From contig JAJGOT010000451.1 in assembly GCA_022457155.1 (NCBI GenBank), positions 496,001 to 560,000 on the forward strand: 64,000 bases of DNA. Reading direction: 5' to 3'. The stretch is from Cladopsammia gracilis. Lineage: Eukaryota > Cnidaria > Anthozoa > Scleractinia > Dendrophylliidae. The first letter of the stretch is position 1; each line of letters opens with the position of its first letter. Positions 3,320 through 63,171 of this stretch are shown here, in pieces. The notes under the pieces were generated by a model, which did not search any database, had not been told where the DNA came from, and saw only the letters and a program-made list of their open reading frames with translations. The translations under genes were made by a program, and so were the position numbers.

Positions 3320-5880
3320 AATCAACAACAACAACATATTTATTGGCATTCCCATATAACATTAATGGTATTGCAATAACAATGATGAATATAATATATA
3401 GTTACTAATTACGGATTAACAAATCATCACGCCTCAAGGACGCTTCATATATAAAATGGCTCATTTTTTTACAAATCACGGGATCTATGCTATTGAAGAA
3501 AAATACAATAAGGTCTTCGTCTGTTAAATTCTTAAAACTTGCACAATATTTCCTAATATCGTAAAATAAGTTGTTCCGTAAATCAACATATGAGACGCAG
3601 TTGAAGAGGAAATGATACTCGTCTTCTACATTTTTTGTATGGCAGCATTCGCAGCTCCTTAGTTCTCTTGGTGTTAAAGGCTTTGTATGTCTTCCTTTTT
3701 CAATTTGAAGGTTATGGTTTCCAACTCTAAATTTGGCAAGAATTCTCCTGTGTCTCATATTCTTGACTAGGTCATAACAAACAGAACTGTTGGTATTATT
3801 TTTAAATTTGCAATAAAAATTTAGTTTAGTATTCATTTTAATAAGTTTCATTTGGTGCGCTATAGAGTCTTTCTCTATATTCGAAGAAAGAGTGGATACA
3901 TATTGTTTTAATGAGTTGGGGTTTTTGTTAAAAATAGAAAAACTAGTACTTGTGGTTTGATCATATTTTATCAATAGCGTATTTATTGAGTTCATGAAGC
4001 TTTGATCGTTTGATATGGCAAGATTTTCCGAGATATATAGACATTGCTTAGCTATATTATCCTCGGGCAAGGCTTTAAGGTGTAACCAAAAATGTAATAT
4101 ATTACGATAAATTCGCGATTTCAGAGATAATCTTCCTACTTCATTTCGTGCCGCCACATTTGGTGCCCGTTTGTTACGTCCAAGATAATATTTGAAAAAT
4201 TGTGAATGAAGTTGTTTAACTGGATCTTTTTCCCATTTTTGAAGATTCATATTATCATAGGCTCCCCAGACTTCTGAATTATAAAGTAAGATAGGTGAAA
4301 AAAGGCTATCGAATAATTTGTTACAAATCTATACATTGTTTCTGAAAGATCATTACTTTGGTTTTTTTAGTGTTGACAGACATCAAGGATTCTTTGCAAA
4401 ATTGTTGTAGAGAGTTGATACTCCTTTGCAGACCAACGGCACTAGTAGAAATTAGTACCAAGTCATCAGCATATAAAAGCAAATTTAGCCGTGAGCCGTT
4501 AGGCAAGATAATGAGGTCTAAACCTTGGGTATTTTCTAATCTCGAAGGAATATCGTTTAAATAGAGGTTGAATAAGAGGGGTGATAAGATACAACCTTGG
4601 CGCACTCCTCTGTTATAATTAAAATATTCAGATCTCATAGTATCAGCTTTGACACAGCATTGTGACTTGGAATACATGTTAGCAATAAGGTTGAAAAATT
4701 GTCCACCTATACCATAATCGAGTAAACGCTTTAGTAAACCAGGATGCCAAATGGAATCAAAAGCTTTCCTGAAATCCACAAAACAACAAAATAATTTTCC
4801 TCGAGGTGTATTAGTTACATACTTGTCAATCAGTGTACGTAAAGCGAAAATATGATCAGTTGTTCTATTACCAGGGAGAAAACCGATTTGAGAATTATGT
4901 AAAAGATTGTTATCTTTTAAAAATAGGTGAAGTCTTGAATTAAGAATAATGCAAAACAGTTTACCTAAACAACTTGTCACACAAATCCCTCTATAATTAG
5001 AGGGATTAGATCTATCGCCAGATTTATAAATAGCGGTAATCACTCCCTTTGTCCAAATATCCGGATATATTCCTGACTTTATAATAAGATTAAATAACTT
5101 AAATAATATTGGAATTAATTTATCTCCACCACATTTTAACATCTCATTTCGAATTCTATCAACCCCTGGTGTTTTCTTATTCTTAAGTTTTTTGATTGCG
5201 GCTTTTATTTCAGTCTGAGAAATGGGCAAATCTAACACAGTACCAAGTGAATCGGATACACCATGTACCTTCGTTTCCCTGACAGTCGCTGCTTGATCAA
5301 CCGAGAGGTTTGATTCGCTGACCGTCGAGTGTAGATTTCGAAAGTGTTCAAGGAGCTCAGTCACAGGGACTGTCGACTGCTGGTTATGATTAGAATTGTT
5401 ATCAGAATTAAGACGTTTGAGTGATGACCAAAATTGACTAGGATTTGTATCTTTAACAAGATTGTCAATACTTTCATTATAAAAAGTTTGTTTTTTTCTT
5501 CGTAACAGCGATTTATATCCTTTATTTATTTCATTATATTGCTGTCGTAGAGAAAGATTTAGTGGTGCCTTATGAAGTTTGTTGGCGGCCTGTTTAAATA
5601 AAAGCCTTAAATTTTTACATTCTACATCAAACCAAGGTTGCGAAGATTTTCGTTTTCTCTTTTTTGTTAAAAATAATGAGCTTTTAGCGGCCGACTCAAT
5701 AATGTTATTGAACTGAGAAACGGCTTGATTAACACCTTCTGAGTTGCAGCCAAAGCTATTGCCATTAAATTCTTCAATCAATCTACTGATGTCTGGTGAT
5801 TTAAGAGAATTACTAAATTTTTCCTTTGAATCATCCTTCCATGCAAATTCAAGATACGCTGTATTTGATAACTCCAGTTT
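3320..5880 (-). mobile_element. 5'-truncated non-LTR retrotransposon (LINE)
   Basis: A minus-strand LINE copy. It contains most of the reverse transcriptase and the C-terminal part of ORF2. The 3' end, at the low-coordinate side, finishes in a short GTT microsatellite tail near 3322-3345, which is typical of LINE 3' ends. The 5' side stops near 5880, where the frame closes, so the endonuclease region is missing. An internal deletion joins the palm domain directly to the C-terminal part near 4324. Sequence style fits the Jockey/CR1/L2 group; the clade is not certain. Confidence 0.85.
3405..5879 (-). pseudogene. Broken LINE reverse transcriptase ORF
   Basis: Reading from about 5879 down, the frame gives a pre-RT segment, then RT blocks including KKLKNKKTPGVDRIRNEML, a DFRKAFDSIWH motif, GVRQGCILSPLLFNLYLNDI and the catalytic LLYADDLVLIS. 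It ends at a stop at 4321-4323. A second frame (coding continuously from about 4324 down to 3405) resumes with SPILLYNSEVWGAYDN and a C-terminal CECCHTK...HFLFNC zinc-knuckle-like region. Relative to intact LINEs, roughly 80 residues between these parts are missing and the frame is shifted. The upstream methionine at 5781 is a TTG and not a real start. The copy is therefore dead for retrotransposition. Confidence 0.85.
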
Positions 5881-7005
5881 TATTCAAACAAAGCATGTGT
5901 AATTATGTACCGTCTGACTCCAAAAAGAGTAAAAAACGCGCTAAAGCACGTAGCTCCACAAGACTTCTGTTCCTCATTTTGAAAAGCCCCAACTTCGCGC
6001 CGGTTCTCGGGGAGGAAACGGTTATGCGGTAAAAAACTAAAAGAGCGCTTTTAAAATTGCGCGTGATCACAGGTTAAAAATACTCCGGCCTGAGCCTGGT
6101 GTGAACAGAAACGACCTAGAACTGGATATTTACTTCTTTTTCAGTGGGTTTTAATCCTCGCCCCTTGTTGTTGACTTCCGCTACGGTTCGGTTCGATTGC
6201 CTGTTCACACTGCCCCAGAGATTGGCACGAGAATCTATGCGATATGTGATTTCACATTCACGAACGCCGCGTCGCAGCGGCGCTCCGGAACAAAAATCGT
6301 TCCGAAACTAACGTTTCATGTGTGAACGAAAGGCCTATCAGGTATGGCTTTCGTGCCAGCGCAAGCTATCCGGTATAGTGTAGACATAGCCTATGACCCA
6401 CATTGTAAACGGGAAACGGTAGCCAGTCCCTTGTTGCCTGCCGTTTACTATCGTACAGCAAGTGAAAACAGGTTTGCTCGCGTGGAAAATGACGACTGCC
6501 TTGACCATCTTCTTCTTTTTTATGAATACTTTCAGAGTTGCAAATTACAAAACAGAATTTATGTCACGCCTTTGCATTTAAAGTAAAGACAAAAGTGGCT
6601 TCCACAAGGAATCGAATGTCGTTTTCTGATTCTTGGAATGTAGTGTTGATCTTTGCACTATTATTTTTTACCTTAACAAACTAAAAACTAAAAGTAAGAG
6701 TTGCACTTTTCGACTCTAACTGTTTGCAAGAAGAATCTGAAATAATTAAAGATCCGAGATACAATATACATGATATACATTTGGGACGTCAATGAAACAA
6801 AGGACTACACCCATATTAAATAAATTTATTGCTAAGTAGACACCAAACATGTAAGAACCACTTTAGGCTAAGTTAAAAACATGCTGGTTCTTATAATTTA
6901 TGTGTGTTCATAGTATGGTGAAACGATAAATATAATGTAAATATAATGTGGTTTGAATGTAACAATAATATGAAAAATAAGTCCCTTTCCCTAAATGCCA
7001 TTACA
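5881..7005. other. Intergenic region with possible degenerate elements
   Basis: No conserved gene is seen. A MITE-like end (GCGTGATCACAGGTTAA, about 6059-6075) resembles the TIR at 3167. GTGTGAACAGAAACG (about 6100) and TGTGTGAACGAAAGGCC (about 6319) look like imperfect inverted ends of a further small element. The open frame at 6344-6586 lies beside this repeat-like sequence and matches no family I recognise. Confidence 0.35.
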
Positions 7006-10588: not shown

Positions 10589-10635
10589 GTTAGGGTTAGG
10601 GTTAGGGTTAGGGTTAGGGTTAGGGTTAGGGTTAG
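10589..10635 (+). repeat. Interstitial telomere-type repeat (GGTTAG)n
   Basis: Nearly eight perfect head-to-tail copies of the hexamer GGTTAG (equal to TTAGGG, the metazoan telomere unit). The tract lies between AT-rich sequence and a GC-rich palindromic block, so it is internal and not a chromosome end within this window. A second, shorter and imperfect tract in the opposite orientation lies at 58531-58559. Confidence 0.95.
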
Positions 10636-37130: not shown

Positions 37131-37163
<33 letters not shown>

Positions 37164-39349
37164 CCTACTAGAGTTTTTTCGTATCCTTTGTATTTCACAT
37201 GTGAAATACAAATGGTGAAATTTCTCATGCAAATTAGCCGTCTAGCTTTTGAATTAGAATGTCTCGCGATCAGTCATGCAGTGAGATGAGCAAGCTTTTT
37301 TAAGTTTTTGAAGTTGTTTTATCTAAAGTATTTCCGCAGGCTCCAATAGCCATCGTTTAATGAAGACTTGCTTCACAACAAATCACGCGTCAAGTTCAAT
37401 TTAACTTGAGAAAAATCAGAGAGGCAAGCGGGAGAAACTCTAGGGAGTAAAAATCTGGTCTAGATTTAAGGCACAGTTTACGTAAATTAGTCAAACCTTA
37501 GATTATGACAACTTGTTATTTAATAAATATGTAAATGTGCATGTGCTCTCGCCAGAATAGATAATTATTTACTCATTTACTCCTGTGATTTTTAATTGCC
37601 AACGATAAAAGGGAAGAGAGTTTGACTACTTTTTATTTAATTGGAGAGCAGCCAAACGTTTTCAGTATTTGTCTGTCAAGAATTCTAGCATGCGAAGCTA
37701 TATTGAGCATTTTCCCGATGTGATCGGGATGATCGATGGCACACCTGTTCGCATCAATAGACCGCAAGGCAACTTACAAAGGCTTTACTACTAGATTGTA
37801 ATGGTTATTTTACTTATGGACAGGCAAGACAGGCAAGTTAAATTGAACTTGACGCATGATTTGTTGTGAAGCAAGTACAGTCGGACCTCTATTAAGCGGC
37901 CACCCTCCATTAAGCGGCCACTTTCCAAAGTCCCGAATTATTTGTCAGTAAAGTGCTGTATTCGATACCTCTATTCAACAGCCACCTCTATTCAGCGGCC
38001 GCGGCCACCTTTTTGAGGTTGCAAGTTTACTATTTCTTGTATTTTTACCTCTATTAAGCGGCCAGCAAATCATCTTTTCAAGCAAAATAGTGACAGATAA
38101 TATGAAGGTGATAACTGATAACAATAAAAACTGCAATTTAATCTCCACTTGCCCAGTTTCACGGTTACCAGGACCTTGCCCTATCTATCGGAAAGGCAAA
38201 TGACTTGATTTTCTCGTTACAACCGGCAAACAGCAGTGACGGATTAATTTAAATAAATCGTCCGTGAAATATTTTGAGCTAAAATTTTTACAGACTGTTG
38301 GTGCAAAAAAGGCCTAAGAAACTTGATGTTTTGTTACATAGATTTGCATATTTTTCTGCACCTACTCAACACCAAAAAATACTGTAATTATCGACTACAT
38401 ACTCTCTGTGTTAGAGCTAGAACTTTGCATGGACTTGTAATGCGCAAATACAGGGCACGTAATTTTTTGTTTCAATGATTTTTGCATTTATCTTTACATA
38501 TGTTCACTTTTCAACAAGCCTTTTGCTATATAGAGGCAATAAAATTACGTTGACTGCCATTTCTATCCAATTTATATTGCACCTCTATTAAACGGCCAAC
38601 CTCTATTAAGCGGCCAGTTTTCAAAGTCCCGAGGGTGGCCGCTTAATAGAGGTCCGACTGTATTCATTAAACGATGGCTATTGGAACCTTCAGAAATACT
38701 TTCGATAAAACAACTTCAAAAACATAAAAGCTTGCTCATCTCGCTGCATGACTGATCGCGAGACATTCTAATTCAAAAGCTAGACGGCTAATTTGCATGA
38801 GAAATTTCACCATTTGTATTTCACATATGAAATACAAAGGATACGAAAAAACTCTACTACTTACAATTTAATAAAAAATATTCACATAAATACAAACAAT
38901 GTGGCACTTATTTTAATAAAGTTCCAATTTGTTCATTTTTGCCTTAAAATTCACCATTTTGGGAAATAGGGCAAGCAGGGCATGAAATACAGTATTCATA
39001 CAGAAAAAAAAACAGAATTGGATGGCAAATAATTCTGTAAAATTTAACAAATGAAAAGTTTACTAATAGTTGTAAACCTAAGATCAGGCTAAACACTGTA
39101 TTCTGTCCACTTTGGCCTATTAAATTTTATCTGTTTATAGGAAGTGTTCGCCTATGGAAGGTGTCCACCTACGGGAGGTGTCCATTAGCAGAGGTTCAAC
39201 TTTACTGTCCATATTTTAGTTCTGAAAAGTTTGTAGCACTACATCAAGATGAGACAAAAAGTTTGACTGTGGTGAAACTTACATGTCTTCCATGACCAAA
39301 AAAGCAGTGTCTCAGATCCCAAAGCCAGGGTTCCTAAAGAAACAACAAT

Positions 39350-49900: not shown

Positions 49901-52900
49901 ACTGCTTACATATTTATAAAGGATTCAAAATGGTTAAAATGCCCAGGCAATCATGAGGGTTAGGGGCCAGCATTATTTAAAGGGAGGGTTTCACAGCTCA
50001 GCACATGTGCAAGCTATGACGTAACCCATTTAATTTTGTTGTTTACCAATTGGAAGTGAGTAGATAACTCTGGCAGGAAATTTGCTCGTGAAAATGTTGC
50101 AGTCAGTCAGCCGATTGAATGGATGCATTACTGTACCCATGTGCACCATGAAAGCCACCAGAGCATAGAATAAATCCTTTGGGTCAAAGGTTTTATTCAG
50201 TGTTGACTTTGTCTGTGTGATCTGTTGAAATGTAAATATTATACATGAAGCAATCACAAATATTATTGTCTTTTCAGGTTTCTGGTAGTCCCAGACTTTT
50301 CACAACAGTTATTTCAGTTTTTAGGTAGGTTGTATGACACAGACACTCATCTGATAACTGTTTAAAGATTTGTGTTTGTTGTACTGAAGGATAATGACTC
50401 CTAAGAATCTTGTTGTTTTTAGGGCATATGAATCATCAAAGCTTTATCGTGACCTGAAGCTGCGTGGAGCACTGATTCTTAACAAACAACTTCGTCTTTT
50501 ACCCCTGGAACAGGTCTATGATAAGGTAACAACCTAATTCATTGACCAGTTATCAATGAAGCAGAATTAGTTAGGATATTAGTAAAAAATACATGTATGT
50601 ATCATTCTGTGACAATTAATGGTGCAATTTTTGTGCCTTTCCCCTCTCCCTCTGTGGTATTAAATTATTTTTTGTAAAATCTTTTTGTTGAATACGTTAT
50701 ATAAATTATATTTAAAATCATGCTAACCCCAACAAACTCAAAGATGCTGGTTTCCATGAAGGCGTGAAGATTACAAAATAATATTAAATGGGCAAGGCAA
50801 GATGAATCAAGTACTAACAATATAAAGTACATGCATACAGTGGTTTACTGTTGAGTGTAATGAAAGTAATTTCGTGCTTACTTTCATTTTGCAACACTAC
50901 GGCTTGTGATTAACTGCTCTATTCACTAAGTGAATCTAACATTGTGCACATTTCACAAAAGAAATTGAACAACAAAACTGGATAGGAAAATATGAAACTT
51001 GAAAGGAAATTTACATTTCATTGTTGAGATTATAACTAACACATCTCCATTTAAATCTGTACTTCTCCATTTAAATCTGTACTTTTGAAAATCTATCATG
51101 TTCCACGGGATATTCCGTCTGTAATCCAATCAGGATGGTCCGTTTTAATTGTGGTTTCAAAAGCGGGATGATTCCGCATTTCAACCAATCAGCAGATCAC
51201 TTAGAAATATGATATCTTCCACTGTTGGAACATTTCGCATTTCAACCAATGACAAGGTGTCTTTTAACGGCTGCAATTAAGACGTTTCTATTTTTATTAT
51301 CACAGCATCAACGTGCAAATATTTTTGGCGCCAAGTTCTGTAATGGTTGTCTTGTTCTAAAAAAAAATGACAACTTCTCCCGATCTCACGTAATGTACAC
51401 GTAGATATTTTTATTTTGCACAGTTCCGAGTACGCCTATTTACAATTTTCTTTTTTAACTGAATTTCAGAGCCATGTTGTTTTTACTCAAATTTTTAATT
51501 CGTATGGTTTCTTGCACAATGGTCACTTGTACATGTACAAAGTTGAAGAGCATTTGATTCGAATTCGTTCAATGCATGCAAACTCAATTACGGTCAGTGT
51601 TACTCAAACAAAGACACTGTTATTTTCGCATGGAATATTCCGCTCTTTTTCCAGAACATCCCGCTTTTAAGCCAATAAAACACCTTCTTATCGACAGCTA
51701 TTTACTTATCTTTTGTACACATCTAACAATTTCCGCCCAAAGTTGCAATTTAATTAACACCAGGTCAACAAAGGTCGAACAGCTCATTTACATGGCCAAT
51801 AGTCAAAGCGAAGAACTGGCGAAGTCGAAAGTAGTTTTGATAATTCTCTTTCAATTCTTCATATGTTCAAAACGCGAATAATATTCCATCTATTCCCTTT
51901 AATTAAAGACTGAATAAATTTCAGCTAAAGAGTAGCCTATCAAGATTTCAGAATTTATCTGCCACTACGAATTATTTCAGCAGTCAAAAGCGAAGAAAAA
52001 TCGCACGACGACTCATATATCACTTTGTTTACTTTAATATGACAGAGAGAAATTATAATTCTTCATGCTTAGCTTTAAGAATTCATAACTCGAATAATAT
52101 TCCATCGATTCAATTGAATTAACGATTGAATTACGGCTTAAGAGTAAGCGATCAAGATTTTAGAATTTATCTGCCATTAGAATTTAATTTTAGTCGATTT
52201 TAGCCCGTCAAGCCTATCAAGAAAGCGTCGAAGCTAGTCGAGACGGCAGCGGACGAGTTGACGGTGTCGTTACGCTCGACTGAGTTTGATGGATTTTAAA
52301 ACGTACAGTACATCTGCTCACCAGATGCACTCAAATCGTTTGTCAAATAGCATTTGCTCGTATGCCGCCGCACAATTCCCTCTATATCAGCAGAACACAC
52401 GGCCCTAGTGGGCCCTATTTTTACCGGCTTGTCGTACCAACAATTCTTACAAAAGAAGAATTCAAATGCATCTTTGTTCGTTGGATTCTTAAGAATATGT
52501 TCTGACTTACCCGAGTCACTTTGTTCTACCACGACTACCACTGAGCTTGTGTCGTTTGAAATTTAGAAACTTGTAATTCATCCTGTACGGCAGTGTCATC
52601 CGTTTGCAGGCAGCTTATAAAGCTGTATCCGACCCTGCTACACCGTGGCCATCTATCAGAGCTATCGGCATTTTTATATCGTTACCGATGTCGTGGATTT
52701 GCCACCCTTCATGTTCATTTTGGGTTCTAAAATACAGGAGTCTAAAGATGTATCATTACTGACTCAACACATTGGCCTTTGTTTGTGCAATCTGATTTTT
52801 CCTTCAAAGTGCAAAGATGGTGGCTGCATCACCACCCAATAGATTGAAGCGTGAAATGGGTGAAATTCGCGCTGGCGGGAAAATTAAGTATTGTCAATCA

Positions 52901-53052
52901 CAAACTAATGGGTCACCGTAATGTAACACGATATTTTATTCCACAGTATTACACAAACATACATTGCCTTAGCAGTTACACAGAAAATTAAACTTACACT
53001 GTGATATAAAAAGACGCAAACATGCTCTTTTAATGTGAAGTGCTCTAACAAA

Positions 53053-53088
<36 letters not shown>

Positions 53089-56000
53089 CATACCAACTTC
53101 ACCATAACAGTGATTTACAAATTCATTCAACTCATGAGTGCGCCTTTACAACGGAATATTCCGGACACGCTTCACTGCACATTGTTTTTACTTGTCATCG
53201 CGTGTCACCTGAAGATTCAAAGATTGGTAGAATGTCGGGACATTCCGTGTTCCAATTTTTAAGTTGAATTTTTGTTTTTCAAAGTACCCTTATCTTTGGT
53301 CTTGATGTTTCGCCGTGCTCCTTTTCCATGGACCGGCTTCTTCTCTGTGTGACTTTGTTTTGCCTCCTTTACAAGTTTAACCTGAAAATTTAGGCTGCTG
53401 TTCATTAAATGCATTTATAGTCAAAGAGACAAACATTTTACACTAGGCCCAGGTGACTGAGGATTTTACGTTTATTTATTTGGGTCACCCTCTATTACAA
53501 GTTTCTTTTTAAGCCAGTACTGAAGTGGGTTGAACCTTTATCAAGCAGTCAGTCATAGCCATTGCCCGAGGGCGACTGCTAAACACATGTTTGACTGATC
53601 AGTGTCACTCTGTTAATACAACCAGCAACGGACCATAAAGATGTGATTGTATTAATGGCGGGCATATCGTAAAACACTGTAATGAAATGGAATAATAGAA
53701 ATCAGAAATGAAGATTTTTATTTTGCAATTTGCTATTTGGAATGCTAGACGTACTTGCAGTACGTTTATACCAAGATTCATTGATCGTGAGATACCTTCC
53801 CTTCATCATTCAAGTAATCTGAACTGGGAAGTTGTAACTTACCGGTTGCTGGTTTTCTTTCTTTTTTATCAGATGGAGCAACTTTTTATTTCTTTCTTTA
53901 TACTCGCTATCATCATCCAGTTTGTCAGGTTGAGGTTCGCTATAGGTGAATTCCAGAAGGTCAAAAGTTTGTCCTGCCTTTTGGTAATCTTCCGCAGTTA
54001 GGGATTCCCACAACTTAACTTTTTTCTCCTCCTCCTTGATCGCCTCCTCCCACCATTCACGCTCTGTTTTAGACATTCTAATTTTTAGTTTTTCCACGGA
54101 ATCTGTAATTGTCTTGATTGTCGGACATTTCTTTAGGTCTGGCTTTAAAACTGCCGGTTTCCCAGGAGGAATTTCTTTTAGTACTATGTACGGTCCCTTC
54201 GCTGGGTACCACTCCTTTCTTGCCGACTTAGCCCAGGGGCGGTAATTCATCTCCACCTCTCCTTTGTCATTCAACTTGAAACGGAAAGCATGGGGTTGAC
54301 TGTGGTGTTGGAATTTGGCTGTGTAGTCGCGTAGCCAGGACTTGACGTCGTAGATGTTTTCAACGGTGCATGTAATTGGAGTTGGGCTGTATGCGCTTTG
54401 GATTACACGTAGCAGATCATCCAGGGTCACAGCATCAGTCTTGGCCAAGGCTATTGAGATTCGACTAAACAGCTGAAAGAATATTACGATACTAGTGTTA
54501 TTGGCTGGTAAAATGCAATAGCAGTCAGAACGGAAAATACAATAGAATCTTATTTTGTATTTGTTCTACCTGTGTTAGTTTCCACTGTGCTCAATGAATT
54601 GAAATTATTTAATCAGGTGCGAGCCTGATTCTGAATAGTGTAACTGTATATTAGCCTCATGCCTATTCGTCCATCTTTTTCTCATAGCTGGGTAGAACCG
54701 TACGTTGTTACCTTGTGCTATTCCCTTTTAGAGATTATGACGATTACAGTTACCCCCTAATCAATAAAAGAAACACTAACCTGATCAATGTCTTCATGTG
54801 TGTGTCCTAGTAGTAAATACGACAGTCGTACCTGAAAGTTTAATTAATATATACTGTATAGTGAACGTGTTTTTTTGTCTTGAGTACTCTAAAATGCTTT
54901 TCTTTTCCATCAGAGAAATGTAACATGCTTTCCTGAAGATAACTTGTGCGAGTGAAGATTAGTTGATTTAGTGATTGTTTGATTAATAGAAAACGGCGGA
55001 ATTATTACTGGACGACTGCTTGGTCTGTCAGTTATTCTACTTAAATGTTGTGTGCCACTTGGAATACGTCAACGATTGACCTTGTTCCCATTTCGACCAG
55101 CGACCTTGTGACATGCAAAGGTTGAATCTTATTTCGTTCTCATATACAAAATTTATACCTTAATCGACTTTCAATCATGGTAAAAGGTATATAATCACTT
55201 GGTTTAACTTATTCACCTTTCTGAATACACCAGCCTTCACAAGCAAGGCACAAAACCCCAAGATGTGGATATTTTTGCAGTCGCGGTAACAATTGTCAAG
55301 TTGCAAATATAGGTTGGGTGGCAATGGTCCTTTCTAAAAAAAATAAAACAGAGAAAGACTCTTCAGTAAAACGGTGTTGTCCTTTGCAAAATATGCAGCA
55401 TCGAAACTCATTTCAGAAAACCTGCCTTGATCTTTAAACTTATAGTTACCCAGTAAATCCACCACCAGTTTTCGTAAATTTTATATATTTTAAAATTACA
55501 TGCTTCTAATAGCCCTTTTCACGGTTAACTCTGCTCATTTGCATTACAATGAAATTTAGCACATATGTGGGGCAATTTCGGGCTATTTTGTAGTTTTAGC
55601 CCGAAATTGCCTCGCATCCACGTTGGATAACATTATAATGCAAATGAGAAAAATCAACCGTGAAAAGGGCTATTCAACAGACACGTGAACGGTCGCATGC
55701 TTTTATTTATGTAAGACACTGGATGACATTATGAACCCTCCGTTGCGTTTCTCTTGTGTTATGCTGAAACGTATACGAAAATATTCTTACCGTATTTATA
55801 AGATGTCTAAAGCAAGTTACTAAAGAATTTATTGTTGGATTAGCATCCTGAGGCCATCTCAAGAAGTCCACAAAGCACCAGGCTAACTTGTGTCCGTGCG
55901 ACAGGACTCCAGTTACGTGGGTTTTCATAAATTGGTCACATTCTCCTTCCAACTAAATGATAAGAAACAACGCAGCGTTAGCTGAACGCTCATTTCTGCG

Positions 56001-59000
56001 ACAGACACAGATAGACTTGAATTATTGAAAACAATGTAAAGACCTGTAAAACAATATACCGTCAAAATCCTGGTTATATATAAGCCCAACCAATTCAATA
56101 ACGGAAATATCGCTCCGGTTATACACCAACCTTTGACTTTTGTATCCAGTGGGGCAAGTGCGTCTTGCTTTGATCCATACCATCAATGATAATTGAAAGG
56201 TATCTTTCGGGATGCTGCTCGGCCTTCTTTTGATGTTTATAATATTTCTTTCTTTCTCCGCTGCAAAAAAATAATAGAAACTATTTAAAGTTGTCAAGAC
56301 CTTGAAAAACACTTTACACTTTACAAAACAGTCACGCTAGCTTATCACAAACTTTCAAAGGCTCAACAGGAACACCAAGACATTTACTATTTTTTTTTTA
56401 CAGTAATGTACAGATTGGCACTTACGCTTGCTGTTCCATATGTCTTTGTTTTCTCTCTGTCCATGTAACTCTGTTTTCTTTGTTACGTGTCGAACGAATG
56501 TGTTCGTTTATCAGGAGACAGACTCCGCATTTCGTGAATCGATTTCTCTGTTTTGAAACAAAAAGAGAACAAAACAAAACAAATTCCATGTCAGTAAATA
56601 TCAGCAGCTACATCCTATAAAAGGAATGGAAAATCAGATTGCGCATGACCTCTAACCTTTGGTATTGTTACTTCAGGAAAACGACGCTTCCACATTCTTC
56701 TAAACTGCGAAATCTGGAGGGGTTTGTCAGTTTGACCTTTAACTGCCTCTCGGTACATTTCGTAGACTTTACGTACGGTTAGGCAGGCTGGCAGCTCCTT
56801 ACGGTTGACGTCTGGCATCACGTTTGCCAAGGACCTCACTAGCTCCGCTAACCATAGTTCAGCTTCCACTGACCTTCTTGTTGCCAAAATTATGCCGCTT
56901 CGAGCATGGATCGGGCTGGCTAACCCACGGACGGTGTAAGCATCTTTCCAGCTGTGAAATCTTGAAAAAAGAATCAAGTCATATTAAGTTCTTTTCATTT
57001 GCTTTGTGAGCATATTGATAAATTAAGTGACAAACAATTGAGCGAGAGCCTGAATAACTATACTAATATCTGAAACGTAATCAACCCACGTCTTTCTTTT
57101 ATTTCAAGAAGTAAGGCATTTAACAAAGATTAGAAAAACATTTATCTGCATAAAATGACCTACTTATAAATAGATGTGGAGGTCCATTTTCAACGGCGGT
57201 CTAAATTAGAGTTCGTTTAAAGGCCCACTATCACCCAAACTACATTGCGAATTTAACGCAGTCGAAAATTCCCGAAAGAGCCAATCACGAGCGAGCTGGT
57301 CGTTTGAGAACAAACGACAGCAAAGCCGAATGGGTGATAGTGGGCCTTTAAATATCAACTTGCGTCCTGTGGACCATGTTACAGAGGAGATTTTATTCAT
57401 TATAGTGTACTGAGCAATTAATAGGAAATAGTATTTATGTATGTCCATTATATTCGCTTTAAGATTTAAAAATACTATTTACAAGGCTAAAAAAGGTAAA
57501 AAAATCCAAATGAAAACGTTTTTAGCCTTGTAAATAGTATTTTCAGTCCAATTAGTTACCTTCCATACGACAATCCATGGCTAGAGATCCAAGCCTTTTG
57601 GCAAACCTCTTTTTTATTAACGAAGTAGGCCAGTGTACTTTTTCCATTTTGTACTCTCTGACCAAAAGAAAAAAAATGAAGAAGCCATTGCCCTTGCTCC
57701 TCTCGGTCTAATTCCCAGTATTCCTTTCTGGCCTCCAATAAATCGTTTAATGTTAAAGTGTCCTTCAAACAGTTCTTTTTGCAGCACTTTTTCATCCTTG
57801 TTTCTTCGATGCATCCGACAGAAAGCATTTTCCTTTTTCGCGAATGTTTGATTGATGCCGTAGCATCTTCTTCTATCAGCGGATTGTTATATGCTCTCTT
57901 TTTTAAATCGGGGGTGTCAATTCTTTCCTGTAGGACATTAATTGAAAAAAGGGCTTAGATTTAACAATGGAACAAAGGAGATGCAACTCCAATGAATAGT
58001 TTTCAAAGAGTTCTTCAAAGCTTACCCGATGATCTTCATCAAAGCTGTTATCCAAAGTTTCAGGTGGCGGTGAGATTGTTTCGTAGTCAGTGTCGCATTC
58101 CTTTTAGCAAACAAAGAACAAAATGACAACTATCGATGGCTAGTAGTTTGCGTAACTTTATAATTCAGAAATCTGTAAGAAACCACCACTCTAACTGAAG
58201 TCCAGGAAAACGTGTGCTAACCCCAGTGTGCAATGAAAACAAGAGCAAAACATAGTCGATAATACTCGTCATTGTTTTACAAATACATGAAATACATTTT
58301 ATTCCAGATTTCTTTATTGTAATTCAGTAACTAGTTTTAATTTCCTTATTGTAATTGGCTCGGAAATACCATGTCTAGAAATGGGAATACTGAAATAAAG
58401 TTGTTGTTGTTGTCATTGTTAATTTTTCCTCACGTATTAGCTACAGAAAAGCTCTCCTTGGCGACAACCCTGGAGATTACAAACTAGTCTTTCCTATATC
58501 AAAGTCGTATTATAGCGTATTATAGCGGTTCTAACCCTAACCCTACCCTAACCCTAAACCATACGAATTAAAAATTAGAGTAAAAATGTGTGTCACTTGC
58601 TTTTTTCGTGCTTTATCTGAAATTCAGTTTAAAAAGAAAATTTTAAATAGAGTCTAAATAGGTGTACTCAAAACTGTGCAAAATAAAAATATCTACGTGT
58701 ACATTACGCCAGAGATCGGGAGAAGTTGTCATTTTTTTAGAACAAGGCAACCATTACAAAACTTGGCGCCAAAAAAATTTGCTCGTTGATGCTGTGATAA
58801 TAAAAATAGAAACGTCTTAATTGCAATCCATTAAAAGACATCTTGTCATTGGTTGAAATGTGGAATGTTCCGACCGTGAAAGATATCATATTTCTAAGTG
58901 ATCTGCTGATTGGTTGAAATGCGGAATCATCCCGCTTTTGAAACCACAATTAAAACGGACCATCCCGATTGGATTACAGACGGAATATCCCGTGGAACAT

Positions 59001-62000
59001 GATAGATTTTCAAAAGTACAGTTTTAAATGGAGAAGTACAGATTTAAATGGAGATGTGTTAACTATGTAATAATAATAATTGTATAATGAATAATAATAA
59101 TAATATATATTACATGATAAAAAAAATTAATATGATGCAGCTTCAACTACAGTATTTAGCATGACAATTGAGATCAGAAAGAAACTATGGCAGAACCTTT
59201 CAGTTCTGCAATTAAAGGTAGTATAAATTATAATTGTTCAAGTTCCCAGTGGGGTTAACACTTGAAAGCCAAAATTAAATACCCTGCTTCTAGAATTCCA
59301 GTACCGTTATAGCTTCACACTTTAATTTCCTTTAGAAACTTTTGAGACCCCCTCCACTCTGAATTTCCAGTGATCTTCCATATTTGGAAATGGACAGAGT
59401 TGAGTGCTTGCATTATGGCAGTGTCCTCATTAAGATTATTAAGAGATACATAATCAGAATCTTTGAATCTGGTTAAAAATGTGAAGGTATCTTTATTATG
59501 GAGGTATTAAATTGCACTGCATGTTCAGCTGTCTTTGTGTCTGTTTTGTTTTTCTACAATCTTAGAGGCAGCAAATTTGACCTGCAACTACCTAAGCCTA
59601 GAACTAATTTCATGAAACGATCTTTCTCCTATCGCGGCCGGTGCCATTCCCTGGAATGAGCTTCCCAATGAAATACGAGAACTCAGTAGTTTAACCGCCT
59701 TCAAAAGAGCTCTCGAACAAAAATAGAACCTCTGGTTCTATAACACGCATCTATGATTGTAGCTAAATTTTTATGTGTGTATAGAGGATATTATAATATA
59801 ACTTAGTGTTTTTATTAATCTTATCACCGGTAGTTTTATTTACACTAGTATAGTATAACAGTTTTGCTACTATATAAATATATATATATTTTTTTGTTAT
59901 CATTTAGATTAGTCTATTAGATTACATTTAAGTACACGGCATGTCTGAAAAACAGTTTTACTGAGCCATTTTACTGTGTTGAAATAAAGTTGATTGATTG
60001 TTAATTCTTTTAATAATAATGATTATGTTTGCTGTTTTGTTGTAGATAAATGGTGTCTGGAACCTTTCCAGTGATCAGGTAAAATTTACAACATACAGCT
60101 TACTATAGATAACACACTGCACAGGGAGAGACATTGGTGGTGCATACCTCAAACCTACCTCTCCACCCCCCCCCCCCCCCCAAAAAAAAAAAAAAAAAAG
60201 AAAGAAAAGACCAAAACGGCTGCTGTCCATTTTGATAATCAACCCAAATGATAAAAAAACATATCCCAAAGGGTGTATAAAACCATAGTGCATGAAAAAT
60301 TGCCCAAAACAGCATTTCCACACACACAATCTTTTTTTCTCCAGTAGGCAACCAGGGTTTTGTGAGAATGTTCCCTGAGGGGAGCTGGTCACTTACAAAA
60401 CTAAATCTTTTTAAACTTCACAAATCCTCAACTTGGCGGTAATTAATTGCCCTTATCCATTAGCTATTTGCAAAAGTTTATTGTGTTATTGTTACTGATT
60501 GTTTCAGGGAAATCTTGGAACATTTTACATCACTAATGTACGCCTGGTGTGGCATGCAAACATGAATGACACATTTAATGTCAGCATCCCATATCTACAA
60601 ATGGTAAATATTTTATTTTGATATGATGGGCATTGCACTGACATGGCAGTCCAATCTCTTTAAAATTGACAGGTCATAGAGATGGCTGTCACTTATGGGA
60701 GATGTTTGCTAACAAGAGTATGATATTTAGAACAAACATACACACTGACACTGAATATAACATTATTATAATTATGAATCTTTTATGTAGCAGCTTGAAA
60801 AGCTACAGAGCACGTCCCCTGCTCCTTTTCCCCTGGGATTCTATTCAAGGGCAGCCTTTACTGCACTCCCATCCCATGCTACTTTTTCCCTGGGATTCTA
60901 TTCAAGGGCAGCCTTTACTGTGCTCCCACCCCATGCCACTTTTCCCCTGGGATTCTATTCAAGGGCAGCCTTTACTGCACTCCCATCCCATGCTCCTTTT
61001 TCCCAGGGATTCTAGTAAAGAGCAGCCTTAACTGCACTCCTATCCTATACTCCTTTTCTCCAGGGATTCTAGCCAAGGGCAGCCTTTGCTGCACTCGCAT
61101 ACCATGCTCCTGTTTCCTAAGGGTGTGACCTATCTTTCACTGTGCCTTTTTTTAAATAGAAATCAGTAAAAATAAGGGATTCCAAGTTCGGACTTGCATT
61201 GGTACTGGAAACATCTCAGCAGGTAATGAATAATTATGTTAAATGATAAATTCTATTCAGCCCTTGCCTCTCTCACTTCCAAAAGCAGCCAAAATAGAAA
61301 TTCAAGGAAAATGTCAAAATTATTTCATCAAATATTTTATCTAGTATTTAAAAAACCAGTGCCATAGAAAAGTTATGCAAAAGGGCTTTCATTTGAATAG
61401 GTAGATCACACTGCAGGATGTCAACTAGTAGCACCATATTGCAACACTTAACTTAAAGGGGCATGGATACAGAGATTCTTAAAGGGGCATTGATACAGGG
61501 ATTCTTAAAGGGGCATTGATACAGAGATTCTTAAAGGGGCATTGATACAGGGATTCTTAAAGGGGCATGGATACAGAGATTCTTAAAGGGGCATTGATAC
61601 AGGGATTCTTAAAGGGGCATTGATACAGAGATTCTTAAAGGGGCATTGATACAGGGATTCTTAAAGGGGCATGGATACAGAGATTCTTAAAGGGGCATTG
61701 ATACAGGGATTCTTAAAGGGGCATGGATACAGAGATTCTTAAAGGGGCATGGATACAGGGATTCTTAAAGGTGCATGGATACAGAGATTCTTAAAGGGGC
61801 ATGGATACAGAGATTCTTAAAGGGGCATTGATACAGGGATTCTTAAAGGGGCATGGATACAGAGATTCTTAAAGGGGCATTGATACAGGCATTCTTAAAG
61901 GGGCATTGATACAGGCATTCTTAAAGGGGCATGGATACAGAGATTCTTAAAGGGGCATTGATACAGAGATTCGTAAAGGGGCATTGATACAGAGATTCGT

Positions 62001-63171
62001 AAAGGGGCATTGATACAGAGATTTTGCTGTGTTTTGGTCCAAACAGCATTGAATATTTGACAAGGTACAACAAAGGTACAAATTAAGCTTAATGAAATTA
62101 GCGTAAAAAAAAATAAATTAATAACATGGTCCCAGACTGTATGAATAGCTTATTAGTTAAACATTTTGAACACGTAAATCTTAGATCCAGAGAAGAAAAT
62201 AACGTCATCGTAAAAAGATTTAATTCCTCTTTTATGAAAAACTCAATCCACTACAGAGCATCTGTTTTGTGGAACAGAATTTTAAACATTTTTAAATTAG
62301 CTACCAGTTTAAGAAGTTTTAATAACCGTCTTTTGAAATTGGCTGAATTCCTTAGCTTCAAATTCAACACTACAGGCTCAAACCAGTGCAAGCCGAAGCA
62401 CAACGATGACTTTGCTATTATAAAAATTACTTATGCTATATGAATATCAGTCGAATTTTCTTAACTTTTTTAACTACATTGTATTTTTTGTTATACATTC
62501 ATAGTTCAGTTATACATGACCCCACAAGCTGTACAGCTTTAATCACTAATCGTGTCTAAATAAAGGTTTTACATTACGTTACGTTATGTTAAGTTACCAT
62601 TGCTCAAACACAAAATTGCTTTTACAGCACCAAAAAAAACATCAGGTAATTTCTTGAAGGAAATTTTTCTCAGCTACTTTATTCACTTCCCTGCCTATTC
62701 CAAAACTCAGTGACAGCAGTCCTTCCTTTATTGTTGTAAATCATTGTTCTTTCTCAGTGACAGCAGTCCTACCTTTATTGTTGTAAATCATTGTTCTTTC
62801 TCGGTGACAGCAGTCCTACCTTTATTGTTGTAAATCGTTGTTCTCTCTCAGTGACAGCAGTCCTACCTTTATTGTTGTAAATCGTTGTTCTCTCTCAGTG
62901 ACAGCAGTCCTACCTTTGTTGTAAATCGTTGTTCTTTCTCAGTGACAGCAGTCCTACCTTTATTGTTGTAAATCATTGTTCTCTCTCAGTGACAGTAGTC
63001 CTACCTTTATTGTTGTAAATGATCGTTCTTTCTCAGTGACAGCAGTCCTACCTTTATTGTTGTAAATCATTGTTCTCTCTCTTTCAGAGTGGGGGATATG
63101 TTCTTGGTTTTCGTATTGACCCAGCAGAGAAATTGCAAGAAGCAGCAAAAGAAATACAAAGTTTGCAAAAG
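46230..63171 (+). CDS. BBS5: BBS5, BBSome subunit, 12 exons visible, 3' end beyond the window
   Basis: BBS5 is the phosphoinositide-binding PH-like subunit of the BBSome, which carries membrane cargo in cilia. Exons: 46230-46285, 46372-46396, 46472-46529, 47041-47106, 49074-49123, 49223-49303, 50278-50324, 50423-50525, 60046-60078, 60508-60603, 61160-61222, 63088-63171. They total 762 nt (254 codons), all joined in frame. The protein starts [20 protein letters not shown] and includes [73 protein letters not shown] and [17 protein letters not shown], matching animal BBS5 closely. The remaining roughly 80-90 residues lie beyond 64000. Intron 2 has a GC donor. Intron 8 is 9.5 kb because it hosts an 8-kb transposon on the opposite strand. 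Introns 10 and 11 carry minisatellites. Confidence 0.95.
46857..46933 (+). repeat. (CA)n microsatellite in BBS5 intron 3
   Basis: An uninterrupted CA/AC dinucleotide array of about 38 units, preceded by C-rich tracts. It is likely to vary in length between individuals. Confidence 0.97.
47150..47570 (-). mobile_element. LINE 3'-end fragment in BBS5 intron 4
   Basis: The minus-strand frame 47433-47221 encodes [20 protein letters not shown] followed by PQIVR, the end of a non-LTR retrotransposon ORF2 (LINE C-termini usually read RGAxLWNxLP). After the stop the strand runs to CCGTGTTTAAATAAAG and a GT/ATGT-type end. The 5' part is missing. Confidence 0.7.
47700..48970 (+). repeat. Tandem copies of a dispersed repeat (GCTTTCATTTGAATGG unit)
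   Basis: At least two to three diverged units of roughly 120-130 bases share ACAGTACCACAGGAAAGTAC, TAGCTTTCATTTGAATGGT and AGTCAGAACTACCTTGTA. They lie at about 47700-47892 and, after the insertion at 47893-48797, at 48798-48970. Single relatives occur near 20920, 30390 and 61360-61430. Confidence 0.65.
47893..48797. mobile_element. 905-bp TIR element inserted in the dispersed repeat (TTA target)
   Basis: TGGCTCCGTCAATTCCAAGC at the left and GCTTGGAACTGACGGAGCCA at the right form TIRs, with further CCCC/GGGG-rich matched ends. TTA flanks both sides (47890-47892 and 48798-48800), as for PIF/Harbinger elements. Removing it rejoins ACTGCTTA to GTAGCTTTCATTTGAATGG of the host repeat. No transposase frame was seen. 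Confidence 0.8.
51860..52200. repeat. Direct sub-repeats inside the large transposon
   Basis: Two related segments of about 110 bases (near 51867-51980 and 52085-52195) share CGAATAATATTCCATC, AAGAGTA and ATCAAGATTT(C/T)AGAATTTATCTGCC. They lie in the same orientation between the left TIR and the coding exons and may be internal regulatory or binding repeats. Confidence 0.65.
52296..52566 (-). CDS. Possible Cys-containing ORF inside the large transposon
   Basis: The minus-strand frame 52541-52296 encodes an 81-residue product with CKNC and, later, [17 protein letters not shown], a pattern that could bind zinc. The first codon is not ATG. A strong splice donor (TCGG followed by GTAAGT) falls near its beginning, so it may be chance or an alternative exon. 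It matches no family I recognise and lies downstream of the transposase stop. Confidence 0.2.
53050..53090. repeat. (AT)n microsatellite inside the large transposon
   Basis: Simple alternating AT tract at about 53062-53088, between the transposase 3' end and the left TIR. Confidence 0.9.
53259..58272 (-). CDS. Eleven-exon DDE-type transposase of the large transposon
   Basis: Exons on the minus strand: 58272-58222, 58100-58026, 57927-57560, 56960-56657, 56547-56426, 56260-56131, 55952-55791, 55333-55217, 54831-54781, 54472-53843, 53381-53259. They total 2133 nt (710 aa plus stop); every intron is GT-AG and every join keeps frame. The N-terminal part has a Cys-rich start (KKCCKKNC) and [18 protein letters not shown]. 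Next come [12 protein letters not shown] and the catalytic-like series [31 protein letters not shown] and [19 protein letters not shown] charged C-terminal region follows, and a basic tail ([16 protein letters not shown]). The three Asp-bearing motifs suit an RNase-H-fold nuclease. It resembles proteins I remember as carrying DUF7869-type domains, but I cannot verify that. The first 51-nt exon is the least certain; the others are supported by frame and motif order. Confidence 0.85.
55508..55674. mobile_element. MITE nested in a transposase intron (AATAGCCC ends)
   Basis: AATAGCCCTTTTCACGGTT and AACCGTGAAAAGGGCTATT are perfect 19-base TIRs around about 130 bases with further internal pairing (CTCATTTGCATTA with AATGCAAATGAG). 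It lies between the transposase exons 55333-55217 and 55952-55791. Confidence 0.85.
57216..57352. mobile_element. MITE nested in a transposase intron (TTTAAAGGCCCACTATCACCCA ends)
   Basis: TTTAAAGGCCCACTATCACC and GGTGATAGTGGGCCTTTAAA are perfect inverted ends around a core of about 95 bases containing GAGCCAATCACGAGCGAGCT. It lies between the exons 56960-56657 and 57927-57560. Confidence 0.85.
57468..57543. repeat. Perfect foldback in the same transposase intron
   Basis: AAAATACTATTTACAAGGCT is inverted as AGCCTTGTAAATAGTATTTT with a loop of about 26 bases. It ends only 10 bases from the splice donor of the exon 57927-57560. Confidence 0.85.
58531..58559 (-). repeat. Short imperfect telomere-type repeat (CTAACC)n
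   Basis: About five CTAACC/CCCTAA units with one shortened unit, in opposite orientation to the tract at 10589. It abuts the inner end of the right TIR of the large transposon. Confidence 0.85.
59575..60002 (+). pseudogene. LINE ORF2 C-terminal remnant with frameshift
   Basis: The plus strand reads [17 protein letters not shown], then after a single-base shift [18 protein letters not shown] and [10 protein letters not shown] before a stop. This is the characteristic C-terminus of many non-LTR retrotransposon polyproteins. The 3' UTR ends in AATAAAGTTGATTGATTG near 60000. It lies in BBS5 intron 8, just outside the large transposon. Confidence 0.75.
60818..61115 (+). repeat. Minisatellite of about 60 bp, about 5 copies, BBS5 intron 10
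   Basis: Repeats of CCCTGGGATTCTATTCAAGG then GCAGCCTTTACTGCACTCCC and ATCCCATGCTCCTTTT, diverging toward the right end. It produces a repetitive open frame (60666-61031) that is not a gene. Confidence 0.9.
61452..62023 (+). repeat. 26-bp minisatellite, about 22 copies, BBS5 intron 11
   Basis: About 22 copies of AAAGGGGCATGGATACAGAG followed by ATTCTT. Two variants (GATT/GGAT and GAGA/GGGA) alternate in an irregular higher-order order, suggesting multi-unit duplications. Confidence 0.95.
62100..62595 (+). pseudogene. LINE ORF2 3' fragment in BBS5 intron 11
   Basis: The frame 62126-62443 includes [20 protein letters not shown] then WNRILN and [15 protein letters not shown], which is the LINE C-terminal WN motif region. 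The 3' UTR ends with AAATAAAGGTTTTACATTACG and a short degenerate repeat. No reverse transcriptase domain is present. Confidence 0.7.
62706..63081 (+). repeat. 49-bp minisatellite, nearly 8 copies, abutting BBS5 exon 12
   Basis: Copies of CTCAGTGACAGCAGTCCTAC then CTTTATTGTTGTAAATCATT and GTTCTTTCT. The last unit merges into the pyrimidine tract (CTCTCTCTTTCAG) of the exon 12 acceptor at 63087, so the repeat supplies that splice site's polypyrimidine tract. Confidence 0.92.

Follow-up and report, generated by a model that had tools for sequence, protein, structure and literature searches.

In the excerpts of the literature used here, Repbase superfamilies are assigned by a PSI-BLAST criterion on the transposase sequence (PMC4455052), and Sola elements are described as having a transposase with a triad of three Asp (DDD), a 4-bp target site duplication (TSD), a length of mostly 2-9 kb and terminal inverted repeats (TIRs) of 11-1124 bp (PMC10741241). 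Sola2 is reported to have an AT-rich 4-bp TSD (AWWT) and short TIRs of 12-21 bp (PMC3627910), and the mean length of curated bivalve Sola1 elements is given as 5445 bp (PMC10294476). A C/DxxH motif between the second and third catalytic residue defines another group, formed by hAT, P, MuDR, Kolobok and Dada (PMC9587614); Dada elements are described as being without TIRs, having a DDE triad and a DxxH/CxxH motif, and inserting in small RNA genes (PMC3706591). Here we compare with these systems positions 51038-59060 of a stretch of 64,000 nucleotides from the coral Cladopsammia gracilis (contig JAJGOT010000451.1; the whole stretch is hereafter called the window). This locus is very probably a full-length, apparently autonomous DNA transposon with a transposase of the Pfam family DUF7869, most likely a Sola element or a near neighbour of that superfamily. 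For membership of Sola itself, as judged from anatomy and triad type, the chances would be about even.

The element spans 8.0 kb and, in a self-comparison of the window, is bounded by two inverted arms. The arms, the tandem units at their tips and the direct repeat that flanks them are the following:

51038..51510, plus strand: left TIR of about 473 bp, with its outer end at 51038 or 51039 (repeat search, arm alignment, shuffle test)
58556..59060, minus strand: right TIR of about 505 bp, with its outer end at 59060 or 59059 (repeat search, arm alignment, shuffle test)
51041..51080, plus strand: two tandem 20-bp units at the left tip (repeat search)
59014..59053, minus strand: two tandem 20-bp units at the right tip (repeat search)
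51033..51038, plus strand: left duplication copy, as TAACTA; inner AACT at 51034-51037 (boundary enumeration)
59060..59065, plus strand: right duplication copy, as TAACTA; inner AACT at 59061-59064 (boundary enumeration)

An earlier note, made from the letters of the window, had placed the arms at 51038-51510 and 58556-59060, and they are indeed present there: a gapped inverted alignment over the whole arms has 508 columns, 88% identity and a score of 647 bits, and the maximum among the shuffled controls (100 first-order Markov resamplings of 50000-60000) was 44.6 bits, with a mean of 29.6. Without gaps, 239 nt pair between 51032-51270 and 58828-59066 (95% complementary, taking in a few flanking bases), and a second pairing of 94 nt joins 51272-51365 to 58732-58825 (96%). 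The tandem 20-bp units of the tips might be transposase-binding sites. When the rest of the window was compared with the element, only three matches, of 28 to 36 nt, were found, and two of these lie at a telomere-like repeat. Telomere-like CCCTAA units occupy 58532-58558 (58546-58557 in another scan), on the inner border of the right TIR.

The enumeration of boundaries gives a flanking direct repeat of 4 bp, AACT, with edges at 51038-59060 and of 6 bp, TAACTA, with edges at 51039-59059. As the ten terminal bases of both arms are identical in both placements, the length of the duplication is not settled by a single copy; a 2-bp reading (AC) at 51037/59061 likewise gives identical tips. The pattern fits either a true 6-bp duplication that starts with T and ends with A or a 4-bp duplication plus two coincident host bases. 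The 4-bp AACT duplication of the earlier note is one of these readings, and TAACTA can also be read from this copy. At one fixed boundary, a match would occur by chance in about 0.5% of cases for 4 bp and about 0.04% for 6 bp.

Between the arms, on the minus strand, lies a gene of ten exons, which splice in frame to 693 codons followed by a stop, with no internal stop; AG precedes each of the ten exons, and GT follows all but the last. The search against Pfam that the earlier note had proposed gave a strong match of the spliced protein to DUF7869 (PF25273; 238.6 bits, E=5.3e-71), far above the gathering cut-off of 26 bits, which makes the protein a member of this family. The match runs from residue 340 to 525, on profile positions 7-191 of 192. 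Only two other Pfam families were listed, both insignificant (E 0.35 and 0.36) and not transposases, in a listing from which the HMMER filters discard most matches above 0.1. No match at E up to 1 was obtained with NCBIfam (whole protein) or PHROGs (222-residue core), and the search of the Protein Data Bank (PDB) by sequence gave two matches and no significant relative; the best of them, a sulfatase (E 0.0097, query residues 43-90), was judged spurious. Pfam assigns no function to DUF7869, and among the papers searched by domain name, accession PF25273 and two motif strings, none on it was found.

Relatives of the protein were found with a degenerate DNA pattern for GHTHxDVDxxF, which retrieved eight loci from GTDB contigs, four of them (L004, L007, L008 and L009) encoding DUF7869. 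The other four were discarded: L003 has no Pfam match at E up to 0.1, and L002, L005 and L006 were rejected by eye from their translations. Another pattern search of GTDB contigs (35 matching stretches) and the patterns used on viral contigs (11, 25, 1 and 1 stretches), aimed at relatives of the spliced protein or of parts of its relatives, yielded none. Further patterns on viral contigs gave none either (two gave nothing, and one gave a single match, L001, which was rejected by eye from its open reading frames, ORFs), and no relative was found in phages and plasmids by tblastn. The records of the four relatives are labelled as Bacteroidetes (three) and as a cyanobacterium (L004). Since the frames of L007-L009 are broken as if by introns and L007 has, by eye, a retrotransposon-like ORF, these records probably correspond to misbinned eukaryotes. 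No TIR was found in the four relatives, and L004 has no clean one. A short palindromic motif (AGTTTAGCTCGAGTCGAGCTAAACT-like) is repeated to either side of the DUF7869 gene in L004 (237-755 and 3814-4299), and these copies are perhaps transposase-binding repeats of that relative.

The exons of the gene in the window, numbered as in the ten-exon model, are the following:

58222..58272, minus strand: possible extra first exon, 17 codons (51 nt), from ATG to donor GTTAGC
58026..58100, minus strand: exon 1, residues 1-25, outside homologue coverage (splice model, tblastn)
57560..57927, minus strand: exon 2, containing the motifs CCxxNC and VCxxAW..HGLS common to relatives (splice model, relatives)
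56657..56960, minus strand: exon 3 (splice model; tblastn to L004)
56426..56547, minus strand: exon 4, with a conserved CxxC (C256, C259) ahead of the catalytic core
56131..56260, minus strand: exon 5, with D316 of IIIDGMDQ as first putative catalytic Asp
55791..55952, minus strand: exon 6, aligns to beta2-beta3-alpha1 of the modelled relative L007
55217..55333, minus strand: exon 7, with D400 of LQLDN as second putative catalytic Asp
54781..54831, minus strand: exon 8, with D442 of GHTHEDID as third putative catalytic Asp
53843..54472, minus strand: exon 9, remainder of DUF7869 and C-terminal region (splice model, Pfam, tblastn)
53259..53381, minus strand: exon 10, coding for the basic tail and carrying the stop codon (splice model)

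The predicted splicing is supported across residues 59-602, since the intronless 963-codon frame of L004 aligns throughout them in a single tblastn match (E=3.4e-39, 24% identity, 626 columns). Additionally, residues 249-449 align along one ORF of L007 with gaps of 4 residues and 1 residue, and exons 4-8 could also be placed singly. The Cys-rich motifs of exon 2 may form a DNA-binding module. The 11 exons and 710 codons of the earlier note are reproduced when 58272-58222 is added to the ten-exon model, but neither this 17-codon exon nor residues 1-58 found homology support among the relatives compared, so that translation may equally begin at M59. Three inverted-repeat structures lie in introns of the gene: a fold-back at 55508-55674, with two 78-nt arms that are 79% complementary and 11 nt apart; a perfect 25-nt inverted repeat with a 25-nt spacer at 57469-57543; and a structure at 57216-57352 with arms TTTAAAGGCCCACTATCACCC. 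The ends of the last one can be read as TTAA beside AGG...CCT, which would fit a Kolobok-type miniature inverted-repeat transposable element, going by the 5'-RR ends given in the part of PMC9587614 that was used.

The three spaced Asp motifs indicated in the earlier note start at residues 313, 397 and 435 of the protein, and the Asp residues D316, D400 and D442 are conserved where they would be expected, with D as the third residue in all four relatives. As D316 precedes the stretch matched by DUF7869, the Pfam model seemingly starts after beta1. The second and third Asp are 41 residues apart, a compact spacing similar to that of Mos1 transposase (Tc1/mariner) and retroviral integrases. The fold was examined on an AlphaFold2 model of the core of L007 (predicted local distance difference test, pLDDT, 72); a model of L004 was of too poor quality and was set aside. 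The strands and helices of the L007 core follow the order of the RNase-H fold, with D69 in strand 63-71 (beta1), D149 closing strand 143-149 (beta4) and D190 in helix 187-198, the last one, as in DDE/D transposases of this fold. Its best fold matches, which are modest, are Mos1 transposase, retroviral integrases and Argonautes. Mos1 ranks first in Foldseek and is absent from the 50 matches listed by VIA-align, and the matches obtained from a viral fold library were of mixed kinds. On this model of a relative, the fold check proposed in the earlier note came out RNase-H-like, which supports its view of the window protein as an RNase-H-type transposase. Mos1 (Tc1/mariner) and the retroviral integrases would resemble this protein in fold and only work alike; they differ from the element in DNA-binding region, introns and target duplication, and no solved structure is a significant sequence match to the protein.

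Several described superfamilies can be set aside. The C/DxxH motif was found between the second and third Asp in none of the five proteins examined, and hAT, P and MuDR membership was rejected on this ground. Kolobok was rejected for the same reason and, together with piggyBac, because the TTAA duplication that both require according to the relevant part of PMC9587614 is here AACT or TAACTA. Dada elements, as far as the cited description goes, resemble the element in being large and intron-rich (Dada-U6_DR has 11 exons) and in their 6-7 bp TSD, which is one of the readings here (PMC3706591). Dada was nevertheless rejected, as the locus has long TIRs, no gathering-level Rfam match in the window, no C/DxxH motif and D instead of E as third residue.

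By contrast, the element is compatible with Sola, to which it is likened by published description and not by protein sequence. The predicted triad (D316, D400, D442) is of the DDD type, and TIRs of about 473/505 bp and a length of 8.0 kb fall within the ranges printed for Sola in PMC10741241, where a TSD of 4 bp is given; here, AACT or TAACTA is read from one copy. Some points weigh against this assignment: AACT is not AWWT, the duplication may be of 6 bp, and the TIRs of Sola2 are short in the account of PMC3627910. An alternative is that DUF7869 marks a DDD superfamily of its own, distinct from Sola and from the other catalogued superfamilies and with a 6-bp TAACTA-like duplication, to which the element would belong. 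Such a superfamily, of animals and protists, would combine a spliced DDD transposase, a Cys-rich N-terminal module, the GHTHxDID motif, half-kilobase TIRs whose tips have the 20-bp unit in tandem, and an AT-rich TSD of 6 bp, and we regard it in this full form, too, as rather improbable. The possible 6-bp duplication would fit it, as would the lack of any other significant Pfam family, the silence of the literature searched and the missing C/DxxH motif, which disfavours the hAT/P/MuDR/Kolobok/Dada group. However, the missing Pfam match says little on Sola, because no Sola-named Pfam model was seen, and the anatomy of the element is compatible with the Sola description printed in PMC10741241, which leaves a separate superfamily unlikely. 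The earlier note could name no superfamily for the element; with this published description compatible and the protein in a catalogued Pfam family, novelty at the superfamily level is not supported.

The other alternatives concern the state of the locus. It is very unlikely that the gene is a host gene, perhaps a domesticated transposase, caught between the arms of a local inverted duplication: although it is intron-rich with all ten exons open, a single copy was seen and DUF7869 is also encoded by the four relatives, in none of which a TIR was found, the arms are far longer than expected by chance, and identical arm tips with a flanking direct duplication of 4-6 bp are the mark of an insertion. 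A somewhat less remote, though still doubtful, case is that of a formerly mobile element, now fixed, whose transposase is no longer made. The intronic structures at 55508-55674, 57216-57352 and 57469-57543 suggest that the element may have sat there for a while and, together with the divergence of about 5% in the outer part of the arms, speak against insertion in the very recent past. Nevertheless, the ten exons are open with GT/AG borders and the three Asp have been kept, which suggests that this copy could still encode the enzyme.

If the locus is, as we favour, a DNA transposon with its own DUF7869 transposase, the enzyme would bind the TIRs, perhaps at the tandem 20-bp units and through its Cys-rich N-terminal region, and would pair the tips of the element. 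Both ends could then be cut by two-metal DDD chemistry, and the 3' ends would be joined to staggered target positions, whose repair would leave the duplication of 4 to 6 bp.

Other repeats and genes are present in the window. The self-comparison shows three adjacent repeat arrays just outside the element (60815-63081), offset by about 57, 52 and 94 bp, and a 210-bp inverted repeat with copies at 37158-37367 and 38660-38867 (93% identical, about 1.3 kb apart) may represent further transposon ends. A reverse transcriptase ORF (PF00078) at 4324-5883 and a second ORF in a different frame at 3408-4328 are probably parts of a broken retroelement similar to long interspersed nuclear elements (3408-5883). 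Five amino-acid transporter ORFs (Aa_trans, PF01490), on both strands of 1073-24027, form a local family; a (TTAGGG)7 array lies at 10590-10631, and a homeodomain exon is found elsewhere in the window. The transporter ORFs, the reverse transcriptase, the homeodomain exon and the (TTAGGG)7 array are in keeping with an animal genome.

Should the family turn out to be distinct from Sola, the list of 20 DDD/E superfamilies recognised by Repbase would grow, a count taken from the cited part of PMC9587614. With open exons, both TIRs and the duplication, this copy offers a practical starting element for a transposition assay. DUF7869 genes are expected to be often annotated as ordinary host genes, and this Pfam domain, which had no assigned function, now gains a likely role as an RNase-H DDD-type transposase.

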